NCBI GenBank assembly: GCA_022426185.1
Contig: JAKMEB010000165.1
Location: 1 to 47,490, forward strand
DNA from: Schleiferiaceae bacterium
GTDB taxonomy: Bacteria; Bacteroidota; Bacteroidia; Flavobacteriales; Schleiferiaceae
Direction of reading: 5' to 3'
DNA length: 47,490 bases
The position numbers were made by a program, and so were the translations under genes. The stretch's first letter is position 1. Each line of letters starts with the position of its first letter. Positions 23,203 to 34,657 of the stretch are shown here, piece after piece. The notes below the pieces were generated by a model. That model saw nothing but the letters and a program-made list of their open reading frames with translations, did not search any database and was not told the origin of the DNA.

Positions 23203-24027
23203 TTAAGGAATCCAAACCTTAAGATTGTGGTGCCAACTATCGCCCTCTATACGAACGATATACATTCCTGTGGACCATAATTCCGTATTGAAGCGATGCG
23301 CTCCAGAGATTTTGGAAGATGCCGCAAGCACTTTTCCAGTGGCATCTAACACACTCACGTTTTGTGGGCTTCCCAAGGTAACGTCCAGATACCCTTCAAT
23401 TTGAGCGATGTTCAAGTCACGCAAAACGGTTTCCATGACATCTAATAGCTCAAAACCAGCAGTATGTAAACTGTCCTTAGCAGGGTTAAAACTCCAATCT
23501 TTTATAGTAAAGCTTTTGGCACTATCTGCTATATCAATACGTGCCCATCCATAACAAGCCGTATCCTCCTTAACGATGCGAAGACCTAGATAACCGTCTG
23601 TCATAGGACCCGCCCAATTTGAATTTGGATAGGCTACCCCATCTACGTGAAATGCCATGTAACCTGCCTCTGTAGTAGCATTGATGCCAGACCAAACCTG
23701 CGCCGCATCAATAGAAGTACCGGGAAGTACTTTTTCTACATAACTGAATCCGTTTTGCCCTGCACCCATTGCGAGATTTCCTTCGATACTATCTCCTGGA
23801 TGAAGCAGCACGGCATTCACATTACCTAATTGGCCACCGCCTAGAATGTGTTCAATGGTAAAATCTACAATGGTATCCCCGTCAAGGTCCAGTTCAAACA
23901 CCCCATCCACAATTGTGGTATCAGGAATATCTGTGTATTGATATTGTGCCTGTGCAGCTGTACCTCCTAATAAAGCGGCTGCCGTTGCTACATATTGACT
24001 GAGACGTTTAGAATCCGATTTTTCCAT
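23203..24027 (-). CDS. Secreted protein with T9SS type A-like C-terminal sorting region
   Basis: Signal 'LSQYVATAAALLGGTAAQAQ'; C-terminus 'FNTELWSTGMYIVRIEGDSWHHNLKVWIP' fits the T9SS CTD pattern (GxYxVxV...KxxxP). Confidence 0.7.
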   Translation of the reverse strand: MEKSDSKRLSQYVATAAALLGGTAAQAQYQYTDIPDTTIVDGVFELDLDGDTIVDFTIEHILGGGQLGNVNAVLLHPGDSIEGNLAMGAGQNGFSYVEKVLPGTSIDAAQVWSGINATTEAGYMAFHVDGVAYPNSNWAGPMTDGYLGLRIVKEDTACYGWARIDIADSAKSFTIKDWSFNPAKDSLHTAGFELLDVMETVLRDLNIAQIEGYLDVTLGSPQNVSVLDATGKVLAASSKISGAHRFNTELWSTGMYIVRIEGDSWHHNLKVWIP

Positions 24028-24043
24028 GAGGGCAAATATAAAA

Positions 24044-26527
24044 CTAAAAGCGGCGCAACTGCGTCTTTACAATCCCTTTGAGACTGGAAATATCCACTGT
24101 TTTACTCAAAACTTTTGTTAAAACTGCAAATGCCACTGCTAATCTCGGCGTTACCTCATCCAGTTCTTCAGCTTTTAAAAGATCCTCAAACCACAGATCG
24201 ACAACTGTGGCATGCGCATCCATCGCAAACAGTAAGGCCATTTCGTCATGTGCTTTTTCCCATCGGTCCATTTCCTCCCATTGCATAGGAGCCGATTCAT
24301 TGCTCATCATATGGCGCTGACTCTGCAGTAGTGAATGACCTTCACGACGCATGGCAATAATCACTTTTGGACCTTCGGGCAACGGTGCCTTCACGAGTAA
24401 TGGTGCAATAATTTTAATCGATCTACCCCGCTTCTCCTCCAGCCATTGCGCATCGAAAGTCCAATTCTTAATTTTCTCATGTTCATAATAGCCGGCTGCG
24501 TTGTACTGGTCGGCCTCTCGCACTTCATCTGTTTCAGGTTCCACTCCTAAGGACTGTAGTAACTGCATGGCAAGAGATGTACCACTTCGAGGCGGTCCCG
24601 TCACTATATATAGCGGTGCTTTACCTTCATTAGGAAGCAATGCAAGTTGTACAGCCTTGGCCGTGCGAGCCGCCTGCAAATCATCCGTTTTCTTAAATAA
24701 CCAAGCTAAAGCGCCGTGCACCCAAGGTTGATGAAACACTAATTCTGTACTATCAAGTGCAACGTTTATCGCTGCATCCCAGTTTTCGCGATGCAAATAA
24801 TAGCGCAGCCAAAGATTTAAAACATCCGGTCGGTCTTTTGCTATGGGCGATAAAAGTTCATAGAGTGAATCGTATTGGTTCGCTTTCACTAAGAATCTCC
24901 CCCAAAGTATAGCGGTAGACGCGTCCAAGGCATGCGCGGTAAAATCGGGCAGCGTCCATTCTTCATTTCTTGATAAAGCGACTAAAGCGCGGTAATACGA
25001 CCAAATCTCAGGTTGACTTTTCCCTTTTTCCACCCATGTAAGTAGTTCTTCTAAGGCCTGAAATTGTCCTGATTCTGAAAGTAATGCAGCGCCGAGCTGC
25101 AAATAACGCAGCGGTGAATTTTCATTCAATCCTAATGCAGTCAATTCCCGCCAAGCGTCTTCAGGTCGACCTTCAGCGCGAAGACTACGGGCGAGGTAAT
25201 AGCAGTTTTCCAATAAACGTTGATCCGTCACTTTCGTCGCATTGGCATCGAGATACCCCAAAGCAATCAAATCTGCAAGCATGGATGATTCGAGCGTTAC
25301 AGACTCCCTATGTTGCGTTTCAACTTGCGTATCAAGCGGTATTCGAGATTCACGTTGTCCTGGGGCAATGCAAGGTGCAACTCTCCCATTCATCGCAGGG
25401 GTCGCCTTAAAATCATGAACCGCCAGCAACGTAGGAGCCATATCTAAAAGTGTCAGTCCGCTGGTTAATGCATCCGCTTTAATCGCCGGACCTTTTGCCA
25501 AGAATATCCCAAAATGGCGGTGTTCCAATGCCGGTGCCCCAGCGTGATTAGGCAACTGACTCCAACGTTCATCGCCAGACTTGAATCCGTGGTCACTAAT
25601 CAAGAACGTGTTGGTTGCGGGATTTGTAAAACGCAGAAGAGCATCTAGAAAAAGATCGTGTAATCTATAAGCACCGGTAACAATATGCTGGTAGTTGTAA
25701 AATTCGGTATCCGAAACGCCATCAAGCTGTGGCGGATGGTATTTCATCCCTAAATGCTTGTAATGATCTAAGGCATCATAATATATACTTGCATGATCCT
25801 GAGTACCATATGCTAAAGCCAAAGTGGCAAGGGTATGCAGGTTAAGAGCGTGTGTGGTTATTTTTAATACGCTTCGAACAATTGCATCTTCACTGCTTAC
25901 TTCAAGACCCGGAAAAAACAAGGCAATTGCCTGAACAGGAATTTCCTCTGGCTTCAACAATAAAGCTTTAGCGAACGGTTCCAGATGAGAGGGCTGAATT
26001 CCTGCAGAAAGCCAATTCCCATCTTCCGCAGGAGCAAGGTTGGAAATCCGTATGCCACCGCCCTTACTTTCTGTCGCAGGGTGCGAGGGCCACCAACCTA
26101 CTGTTGTACACGACAGACCATTCTCTTCCAACACATCCCAATAAGCTGGGACTTGCAAGGAAGAACCTCGAACGGCTCGAACAGTACCCTTATTTACCTC
26201 TGTAAAACCATGAATACCATGCGATGAGGGCCATTGTGAGGTGGCGATGGAACTCCATAGCATTGGGGAAATAGGCGGGTCTAATGTGGCTAATTGTGCT
26301 TGTACACCACCGTCCATCAACTCCGTAAGATTGGGCATCTTCCCGCTGGTCAATAAAGGTGTCATCATCTGCCAATCTGCAGCGTCCCATCCAACAAGCA
26401 AGGAACGTAAAGACGCACTGTTTTCAGGCAGTGTAGGGAATTGAGTGGAATCAATTCCTTTAAACTGAGCGACTGCTCTGTAGCCACCAGCTAAAAACCC
26501 CAATGTATATATGTCCTTTTGAGCCAT
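24044..26527 (-). CDS. Fusion: alkaline-phosphatase-superfamily phosphodiesterase + helical-repeat linker + sulfotransferase domain
   Basis: N-term 'LLVGWDAADWQMM...MPNLTELMDGGV...PPISPMLWSSIATSQWPSSHGIHGF', 'LISDHGF' and 'HRHFGIFLAKGPA' (type I phosphodiesterase motifs); middle helical region with TPR-like 'ENCYYLARSLRAEGRPEDAWREL'; C-term 'LYIVTGPPRSGTSLAMQLLQSLG' (PAPS 5'-phosphosulfate loop). Met at 26527 preferred over 26569. Confidence 0.75.
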   Translation of the reverse strand: MAQKDIYTLGFLAGGYRAVAQFKGIDSTQFPTLPENSASLRSLLVGWDAADWQMMTPLLTSGKMPNLTELMDGGVQAQLATLDPPISPMLWSSIATSQWPSSHGIHGFTEVNKGTVRAVRGSSLQVPAYWDVLEENGLSCTTVGWWPSHPATESKGGGIRISNLAPAEDGNWLSAGIQPSHLEPFAKALLLKPEEIPVQAIALFFPGLEVSSEDAIVRSVLKITTHALNLHTLATLALAYGTQDHASIYYDALDHYKHLGMKYHPPQLDGVSDTEFYNYQHIVTGAYRLHDLFLDALLRFTNPATNTFLISDHGFKSGDERWSQLPNHAGAPALEHRHFGIFLAKGPAIKADALTSGLTLLDMAPTLLAVHDFKATPAMNGRVAPCIAPGQRESRIPLDTQVETQHRESVTLESSMLADLIALGYLDANATKVTDQRLLENCYYLARSLRAEGRPEDAWRELTALGLNENSPLRYLQLGAALLSESGQFQALEELLTWVEKGKSQPEIWSYYRALVALSRNEEWTLPDFTAHALDASTAILWGRFLVKANQYDSLYELLSPIAKDRPDVLNLWLRYYLHRENWDAAINVALDSTELVFHQPWVHGALAWLFKKTDDLQAARTAKAVQLALLPNEGKAPLYIVTGPPRSGTSLAMQLLQSLGVEPETDEVREADQYNAAGYYEHEKIKNWTFDAQWLEEKRGRSIKIIAPLLVKAPLPEGPKVIIAMRREGHSLLQSQRHMMSNESAPMQWEEMDRWEKAHDEMALLFAMDAHATVVDLWFEDLLKAEELDEVTPRLAVAFAVLTKVLSKTVDISSLKGIVKTQLRRF

Positions 26528-32881: not shown

Positions 32882-34657
32882 TTAATAGGGGAAAAACGTT
32901 TTTGGAAATAATCGAGCGGACAATTTCTTAACCGGTTCCTTTAAACCCATCGCCTTTATGACAGCACCTGTCGATTTGATTGCTGCGCTTTTCACTAAAT
33001 AGATGAGCAATCCGCTGCGATACGCGCTGAAAACGCGAAACAAACGCGCGTTATTTCGAAGCACATCCCAGTTCCACTTCATACTAAACACATTGCCTGC
33101 CCACCACATGGCGACTTGCGCTCGGGCAGACTGCAAGGTCTGCTCATCCGTCCATCTTTCGCGCTCGAAGATGGCATACATCGCCAAAATCTCATCAAAT
33201 GCGGTATAACTGGCAATGGCTCTTGAACGTTGCGTACGCTCGTGAAAACGAAAATAATTCCTCGCCTCCGCAAAAAACTGCAATTCACCGTACTGCAACA
33301 ACCGCGCATAGAACAACCAATCCCCGTTCAAACGCCAGCTCGTCTCCGGCGCACCTACTTGATCAAAAACCGATTTTCGGAACAAAACTCCGCTCGCATT
33401 GGGCACTGTATTTGAAAAAATCATACTCCGCGCGACCTCTACCTTGCCTTCCACCGTAAAGTCCGATTTCCAGCGTGAAGCATCGCCAAATATAAATCCG
33501 TAATCCTCTCTAAAATCTCGTAAAAACGCACCTTTCTCATCCACTAAATGACTGTGACTGTAGGCCATTACCGCTTTTTCATTGCGCTCAAGAGCATCCA
33601 CATGCAATGCCAACATATCCAATGCACACGCATCATCACTTTCGGCAATCCATAAGTATTTACCCTTTGCCCATGCGGAACCTCGTGCCCACTGTGCAAA
33701 GGGGCTTCCTGAATTCTCTTCGTTAAACAACACCTCCAGGCGATCATCTTTAGCCGCCCATTTTTCTAGAACGCTCCTGCTCTCATCCGGCGAACAGTCG
33801 TCCATGAGCAGCACTTCAATGTTTTTATAGGTTTGGTTAACAATAGTAGCTATTCGCTCGTCTAAATAGTCTGCGTGGTTGTAATTAGGAAGGATCACAC
33901 TTACCAACGGTCCATCGACAGGCAACACATACGTTGACTTATTCTGCACTACTTCTTCAACGTGTTTTTTACCACGACGTAAAAAGCCCGTCATCTGACC
34001 CGGCTTCACATTTGCAAACTGGTACAAACCAAACCAAGTCTTACGCTGCACCGCTTCGTTACTATGGGTTAAATCCTCATAATGAACCGCGCGGTAATCA
34101 AGGCCATACTGTTTGAGGAGTTTCGCTGCATTGGCATTGTATGCACGCGCCAACTCTAATGCACTTACAGCGTTTAAATCGCTGTATGCTTCATGAGAAA
34201 GTGACTGACGGCGAAGGAGCGAATCAACGACTGCAGCTTCGTCACGAAGAACCCAAATGACCTTGGCATTAGGAAAACGTTGCAACCACCAGGGTAAAGT
34301 CAAACTTAATCTTGGATCCTTAACAACCCAAGGCCCTGAATAATGCAACCACTGACGCAACGAACTCCCCGAAGCAATTTTCAAATGCGCCGCATAAATC
34401 TCGCGAGCTTGAATAGCGCTTAGTGCAGATTCCAAAGAATCTTCTAACGCCTGATTATCAGGTACTTGCCACCAATTTCCACCGGCCTGACTCAGTATCT
34501 TATCGTTGATGTCGATCGCATAAAGAGCTTCAGAATTATGATCGCAAACGGCTCCTGGGTATACCCCAGCAGCAGCTAAAGCTTGCGTCACCATAGTCGT
34601 CCCACTGCGGTGCATGCCTAGAATGAAGACGGGTGCCTGTATTTTGGTTTTTAACAC
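32882..34657 (-). CDS. Fusion: N-terminal sulfotransferase + C-terminal glycosyltransferase family 2
   Basis: 'PVFILGMHRSGTTMVTQALAAAG' and 'KVIWVLRDEAAVVDSL' (sulfotransferase 5'-PSB and 3'-PB-like), then 'VSVILPNYNHADYLDERIATIVNQTYKNIEVLLMDDCSPDES' and 'WIAESDDA' (GT2). GTG start. Confidence 0.85.
   Translation of the reverse strand: MLKTKIQAPVFILGMHRSGTTMVTQALAAAGVYPGAVCDHNSEALYAIDINDKILSQAGGNWWQVPDNQALEDSLESALSAIQAREIYAAHLKIASGSSLRQWLHYSGPWVVKDPRLSLTLPWWLQRFPNAKVIWVLRDEAAVVDSLLRRQSLSHEAYSDLNAVSALELARAYNANAAKLLKQYGLDYRAVHYEDLTHSNEAVQRKTWFGLYQFANVKPGQMTGFLRRGKKHVEEVVQNKSTYVLPVDGPLVSVILPNYNHADYLDERIATIVNQTYKNIEVLLMDDCSPDESRSVLEKWAAKDDRLEVLFNEENSGSPFAQWARGSAWAKGKYLWIAESDDACALDMLALHVDALERNEKAVMAYSHSHLVDEKGAFLRDFREDYGFIFGDASRWKSDFTVEGKVEVARSMIFSNTVPNASGVLFRKSVFDQVGAPETSWRLNGDWLFYARLLQYGELQFFAEARNYFRFHERTQRSRAIASYTAFDEILAMYAIFERERWTDEQTLQSARAQVAMWWAGNVFSMKWNWDVLRNNARLFRVFSAYRSGLLIYLVKSAAIKSTGAVIKAMGLKEPVKKLSARLFPKTFFPY

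Follow-up and report, generated by a model that had tools for sequence, protein, structure and literature searches.

What does a single polypeptide do that carries a phosphodiesterase at its N-terminus, a sulfotransferase at its C-terminus and a series of helical repeats in between, and on what does it act? The question is raised by an open reading frame found in a stretch of 47,490 nucleotides of DNA from a marine bacterium of the Schleiferiaceae (the window, below). The closest named records to its product come from Schleiferiaceae, Cryomorphaceae or Flavobacteriales.

Domain organization of the fusion protein

The open reading frame starts with an ATG at position 26527; an alternative in-frame TTG start would extend it to 26569. 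Its main features are the following:

24044-26527, minus strand: fusion protein of phosphodiesterase (PDE), TPR-like repeats and sulfotransferase-like (ST) domain, 827 aa, stop codon included
25358-26407, minus strand: PDE domain of the NPP type, residues about 41-390
26267-26269, minus strand: Ser87, candidate nucleophile
24632-25300, minus strand: TPR-like helical repeats, residues about 410-632
24047-24619, minus strand: ST domain, residues about 637-827
24575-24598, minus strand: 5' PAPS loop GPPRSGTS, residues 644-651
24320-24346, minus strand: 3'-phosphate motif, R728 to S736

The phosphodiesterase family PF01663 of Pfam matches residues 43-320 with 74.2 bits against a cut-off of 23 (E 1.9e-20), and it is matched by 20 of 20 aligned homologues. 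The match of Sulfotransfer_3 (PF13469) to residues 723-787 has a score of 25.4 bits, just below the Pfam cut-off of 27. The same family is found at E <= 0.001 in 16 of the 20 aligned homologues, and homologues of the ST domain that are encoded by separate genes score above the cut-off. TPR family profiles are weak in the window's protein and clear in its homologues (11 of 20 aligned). The AlphaFold model (pLDDT 82.7, pTM 0.70) consists of three parts: an N-terminal domain of the alpha/beta type, a middle built of helical repeats and a second alpha/beta domain at the C-terminus. Foldseek relates the first of them to ENPP1, ENPP3, snake-venom phosphodiesterase and a Xanthomonas NPP. The sequence of the single protein has no direct match in the PDB; only profiles matched there, the family profile finding TPR proteins, OGT among them, and the ST profile finding TPST1/2 and SULTs as its best, weak matches (best E 1e-5).

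No signal peptide is evident on the fusion protein by inspection. A chance open reading frame is excluded by the homologues in other genera and phyla, which are 26-79% identical. A role in anti-phage defence was rejected, no PADLOC model matching at E <= 0.01, and a scan for promoters and terminators found such sites no more often than in shuffled sequence.

Conservation of the predicted active sites

In the PDE domain, seven residues (D48, S87, D254, H258, D312, H313, H336) are conserved, each of them in 65 to 67 of 68 distinct PDE-TPR sequences, the roles of metal ligand and nucleophile being taken from the motif pattern and not from a residue-by-residue superposition. The candidate nucleophile, S87, is the first serine of ISPMLW, and 65 of the 68 relatives have a serine there. 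In three PDE-TPR proteins (L107, L108 and L109) this position is occupied by D or N; two of them, L108 and L109, are yet encoded beside partner proteins of the kind described below, with a tyrosine in the leader. In the ST domain, 54 of 54 sequences have GxPRSGTS (644 and 646-651, that is, all of the PAPS loop but its second position), D667, R670, N676, G679, E682 and K705, together with R728 and S736 of the 3'-phosphate motif.

This invariance across relatives led us to reject the idea that one of the domains is degenerate in the window's protein. Both predicted active sites are conserved, the parts ascribed to single residues being those suggested by family patterns. Thus the original prediction, which had placed the open reading frame at exactly these coordinates, divided it into phosphodiesterase, repeat-like middle and sulfotransferase, and seen no signal peptide, holds on all these points: Pfam, AlphaFold, Foldseek and the homologue profiles agree with its domains, and the motifs that it quoted are real and intact.

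A module that is fused or split

The fusion gene is found in 24 of the 25 genomes of the window's genus (the one without it is a bin of 72% completeness). Of 12 other genera in the family, 9 have it. It was found in none of 23 genomes of other families within the order. PDE-TPR homologues also turn up further afield, in Planctomycetota, in Verrucomicrobiota and, among Pseudomonadota, in a single bin. There the ST domain often has a gene of its own at a distance of 0-3.6 kb, which may be on the opposite strand; in other cases this gene is elsewhere in the genome, or the two are fused (e.g. L037, L047 and L084). The fused form is that of Bacteroidota and of some Planctomycetota. In the tree of PDE domains, fused and split forms are intermixed, which implies that fusion or fission occurred several times. 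The architecture is that of a module with a PDE-TPR part and an ST part, which may be joined in one gene or encoded apart, and it is seen in Bacteroidota, Planctomycetota, Verrucomicrobiota and Pseudomonadota. The same tree has a long branch (1.2 changes per column) leading to the window's genus, which points to fast change of the phosphodiesterase domain.

The ST genes are found in 37 of 119 Planctomycetia genomes, against at least 12 of 119 for PDE-TPR, the latter count being a lower bound since the PDE search scored eight candidates per genome. Homologues of the ST domain also lie near other PDE paralogues, at L089 and L092. Some of the Planctomycetota that carry PDE-TPR are named strains (Botrimarina, Lacipirellula and Adhaeretor). 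At eight loci (L033, L038-L040, L042, L043, L049 and L051) the PDE-TPR gene is followed by a DUF1559 gene with a pilin-like N-terminal methylation motif, often situated between the PDE-TPR and ST genes; the DUF1559 assignment is from Pfam for L042 and from clustering for the other loci.

An exported partner protein encoded next to the enzyme

Sixteen bp separate the stop codon of the fusion gene from the start of a second gene, immediately downstream, which we call the partner gene:

23203-24027, minus strand: partner gene, exported protein, 274 aa
23944-24027, minus strand: leader of the partner, residues 1-28, of a conserved tyrosine type
23992-23994, minus strand: Tyr12, the near-invariant leader tyrosine
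23236-23379, minus strand: C-terminal sorting domain of the type IX secretion system (T9SS), residues 217-264

The sorting domain is recognized by TIGR04183 and by a fold match to T9SS cargo tails. It is the only part of the protein that the fold search recognized, the mature domain having no confident fold match in the PDB (best E 0.004, poor rmsd).

Homologues of the partner gene adjoin the enzyme gene in the genus and in 7 of the 9 other enzyme-bearing genomes of the family. More generally, 52 of the 68 distinct PDE-TPR genes have a partner homologue at a distance of no more than 2.5 kb, and at L037, L041, L046, L101, L104 and L106 a PEP-CTERM protein that is missed by the partner profile is encoded nearby. 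The partners of Planctomycetota also adjoin the enzyme gene, with a PEP-CTERM tail instead of the T9SS domain. Pairing of the two genes is seen again and again, in Bacteroidota, Planctomycetota and Verrucomicrobiota, and the partner gene may stand on either side of the enzyme gene, upstream in some cases and downstream in others. A second type of partner, with a PEP-CTERM tail and a different mature domain, is seen at L088, L091, L097 and L102. It has His or Gln at the place of the tyrosine (at L097 and L102, and also at L088 and L091, which are not beside a PDE gene).

The leader of the partner follows the enzyme

The leader is weakly hydrophobic, rich in alanine and marked by its tyrosine. 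Its pattern is roughly K-x-x-x-Y-x-x-x-A-A in Bacteroidota and R-R-x-A-Y-S-L-A-A-G-A-A in Planctomycetota. Tyr12 is present in 26 of 26 rows of the alignment and in 95% of 39 non-redundant partners, a conservation close to that of the best positions of the mature domain. Some partners, those of L037, L047, L098, L103 and L104, have no leader tyrosine.

A profile made from the leader alone finds one protein per genome in the genus, and this protein is the neighbour of the enzyme; a general signal of the genus was rejected on this ground. The profile is positive in all 9 of the other family genomes that have the enzyme. It has no match at E <= 0.01 in the three family genomes that have no enzyme gene, nor at E <= 0.1 in 15 genomes from the level of the order. 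In Planctomycetia, the leader is found in 7 of 119 genomes, all of them among the 12 in which PDE-TPR is detected at E <= 1e-100. The hypergeometric p value of this overlap is 1.4e-8, or 1.8e-5 when the three genomes that seeded the profile are removed, values to be read with the facts that related genomes are not independent draws and that the PDE-TPR count is a lower bound.

One genome shows what the locus looks like when the enzyme is missing. In G034, genes for FtsX, the partner, aconitase and an MFS transporter stand in the window's order, with identities of 41%, 31%, 76% and 49%, and the enzyme gene is absent despite this otherwise similar gene order. The leader of the G034 partner, MMLNKLHAAVAFIIGSYAVQAQ, has no tyrosine at the conserved place. 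Its hydrophobicity is 2.07, against a mean of 1.54 (sd 0.17, maximum 1.8) in enzyme-bearing genomes. In G025, which also has no enzyme gene, the leader hydrophobicity is 2.53, and a tyrosine may remain. The leader thus changes in type where the enzyme is absent, in the two cases, G034 and G025, that make up this comparison.

Supply of PAPS

Synthesis of the sulfo donor PAPS requires cysC and cysD. In the genus, APS kinase (cysC) is found in 6 of 25 assemblies and CysD in 5 of 25; neither gene was found in the window's own genome, which is 89% complete. Both are present in all 12 other genomes of the family. The flanks of the cys locus are partly variable, so cysC and cysD may have been lost during binning. 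Moreover, each of the genus genomes has between one and nine matches to Sulfotransfer_3, and since other sulfotransferases persist in the same genomes, the missing genes are not decisive.

The window itself has another sulfotransferase gene, at 32882-34657 on the minus strand, an open reading frame whose product is a fusion of a Sulfotransfer_3 domain, on the N-terminal side, and a family 2 glycosyltransferase, on the C-terminal side. In other genomes of the genus, open reading frames of some 600 aa that contain a matching stretch of sulfotransferase are found at a distance of about 10 kb from the PDE-ST gene.

What the enzyme may act on

A signal peptide is present on the partner and lacking from the enzyme, so the two could meet only while the partner is still a cytosolic precursor. 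Repeats of the TPR type commonly bind proteins. Together with the way in which the leader co-varies with the enzyme, this makes it the best reading that the enzyme holds the precursor and modifies it. The proposal, to which we give about an even chance, is that of a cytosolic enzyme with two active sites, dedicated to modifying the exported surface protein encoded by its neighbour before this protein is exported.

In such a mechanism, the TPR superhelix would hold the unexported precursor, probably via the conserved leader, and the ST domain would transfer a sulfo group onto it, with PAPS as the donor by analogy with the family. We infer direct action on the precursor, and as acceptor Tyr12 of the leader would be the first candidate and Tyr96 of the mature domain the second. 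The NPP-type PDE domain might act on the same precursor, by hydrolyzing or transferring a group that is linked through a phosphodiester. The partner would then leave the cytosol by means of its signal peptide and be fixed at the surface by the T9SS here and by exosortase in Planctomycetota. Sulfation of the leader tyrosine is a candidate reaction, weakened by the partners that have no such tyrosine and by the missing genes for PAPS synthesis. A group placed on a signal peptide is normally lost when the peptide is cleaved, which also counts against a mark on the leader. Two further observations count against the proposal: in Planctomycetia, ST genes are commoner than detected PDE-TPR genes, and in two genomes, G028 and G029, the partner genes lie elsewhere than the enzyme gene. 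We think unlikely a wider version of the proposal, namely that an undescribed system of wide occurrence has an enzyme guided by its TPR repeats that, in the cytosol, sulfates the leader of one dedicated exported protein and also edits it through the PDE domain. The mark on the tyrosine would then control the timing or manner of export and anchoring, and the system would be compatible with sorting by either T9SS or exosortase.

The adjacency of the two genes is not catalysis, and the reading that best survives beside this one leaves the partner unmodified. The enzyme would make or trim a sulfated or phosphodiester-bearing glycan or lipid that anchors the partner or is bound by it, the partner being only co-regulated. 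Sorting by T9SS and by exosortase both end at the cell surface, the genomes of the genus have many sulfotransferases, one of them fused to a glycosyltransferase in this window, and the proximity of ST homologues to other PDE paralogues fits such a role as well. The feature that co-varies with the enzyme is nevertheless the leader, which is cytosolic and removed; in addition, the pair in the genus consists of one enzyme gene and one partner gene, and other proteins with T9SS tails occur without the enzyme. We hold this reading to be possible, if rather on the unlikely side.

The genes might also be neighbours by shared ancestry or a shared promoter, with no functional contact between their products. 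Neighbouring genes within the genus are indeed syntenic too, but the pairing recurs in three phyla with the partner on either side, and the leader profile tracks the enzyme even where the genes are unlinked: the partners of G028 and G029 keep the tyrosine leader, from which it follows that the enzyme could act in trans. Such passive pairing seems to us improbable.

A different kind of explanation keeps both activities on one small molecule or nucleotide, and it is here that the original prediction fell short. Its account of the fusion stood, and it had missed the partner gene that begins 16 bp downstream, as well as the forms in which the module is split and the breadth of its distribution. 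It had proposed that the PDE domain removes a group from a substrate that is afterwards resulfated by the ST domain, or hydrolyzes the by-product PAP so as to pull sulfotransfer forward. The conservation of both sites, often on one chain, would suit either idea. In Planctomycetota, the PDE-TPR gene is often found without an ST gene nearby, yet it nearly always adjoins a gene for an exported protein, so that the partner of the enzyme is more probably that protein than a nucleotide by-product, and removal followed by resulfation of one substrate is left unsupported. Sites of the NPP type act on diesters and pyrophosphates, and PAP carries two phosphomonoesters, so hydrolysis of PAP finds no support in a site that resembles those of NPP diesterases and pyrophosphatases. 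The absence of APS kinase from most assemblies of the genus is a further point against two sites that work on one small molecule or nucleotide, which we judge very improbable. Finally, we give even less credence to an ST-like domain that no longer sulfates and binds, for example, CoA, whose diphosphate would be cleaved by the PDE domain and whose phosphopantetheine, for example, passed to the partner: CoA does contain the same 3'-phosphoadenosine 5'-phosphate moiety as PAPS, and the PAPS-type site is invariant although CysC and CysD were not found in most genus assemblies, but these bins, which keep other sulfotransferases, may have lost the PAPS genes, and all 12 other family genomes have them.

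Significance

Modification of the precursor before export is thus the reading that we prefer. Among the open-access papers searched, we found no description of the PDE-TPR-ST combination with a leader-bearing exported partner, and nothing relevant in those on PEP-CTERM, sulfotransferase, phosphodiesterase, TPR or Schleiferiaceae; the literature on CoA in relation to sulfotransferases likewise yielded nothing of use. The parts are known; it is their combination with this partner that is undescribed in these papers. We know of no coupling between the two enzyme families, phosphodiesterase and sulfotransferase; here, in several phyla, both are linked to a single exported protein whose leader is distinctive. 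The pairing with a tyrosine-leader exported protein in other phyla suggests that proteins are modified ahead of their export by a system not yet described, and with it a curious domain fusion becomes a defined hypothesis on an enzyme and its substrate. If true, it would extend bacterial protein sulfation beyond RaxST and suggest that signal peptides themselves can be modified.

Comparison with known systems

The PDE domain has the fold of the NPPs (ENPP1, ENPP3, snake-venom phosphodiesterase and Xanthomonas NPP; Foldseek E about 1e-6 to 1e-7), and it shares with these members of the alkaline phosphatase superfamily (PF01663) the conserved metal-type residues and a nucleophile of the S/T type. 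It differs from them in being only 12-15% identical in the structural matches, with a serine at the nucleophile position, and in belonging to an enzyme that has no signal peptide and is fused to TPR repeats and an ST domain. Likewise, the ST domain has the 5' PAPS loop GxPRSGTS and the R...S 3'-phosphate motif of TPST1/2, the cytosolic SULTs and Sulfotransfer_3. Compared with TPST1/2 and the SULTs, it is short (about 190 aa), gives a weak profile match and has an invariant signature of its own, D-x2-R-x5-N-x2-GYxE.

As to the arrangement as a whole, OGT is a precedent for TPR-guided protein modification. In OGT and SPINDLY, a TPR superhelix is fused to a protein-modifying transferase, as here. 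Theirs is a glycosyltransferase chemistry with broad substrates and no PDE domain, and the likeness is limited to the TPR repeats. RaxST of Xanthomonas, for which tyrosine sulfotransferase activity in vitro has been reported (PMC4216712), is likewise a bacterial sulfotransferase tied to a leader-bearing exported substrate. It is a lone enzyme encoded beside type I secretion genes, with neither PDE domain nor TPR repeats, whereas the candidate tyrosine of the present system lies in the leader of a protein sorted by T9SS or PEP-CTERM. As a proposed pair of enzyme and exported substrate, the system described here has its nearest functional precedents in RaxST and OGT and is a member of neither family.
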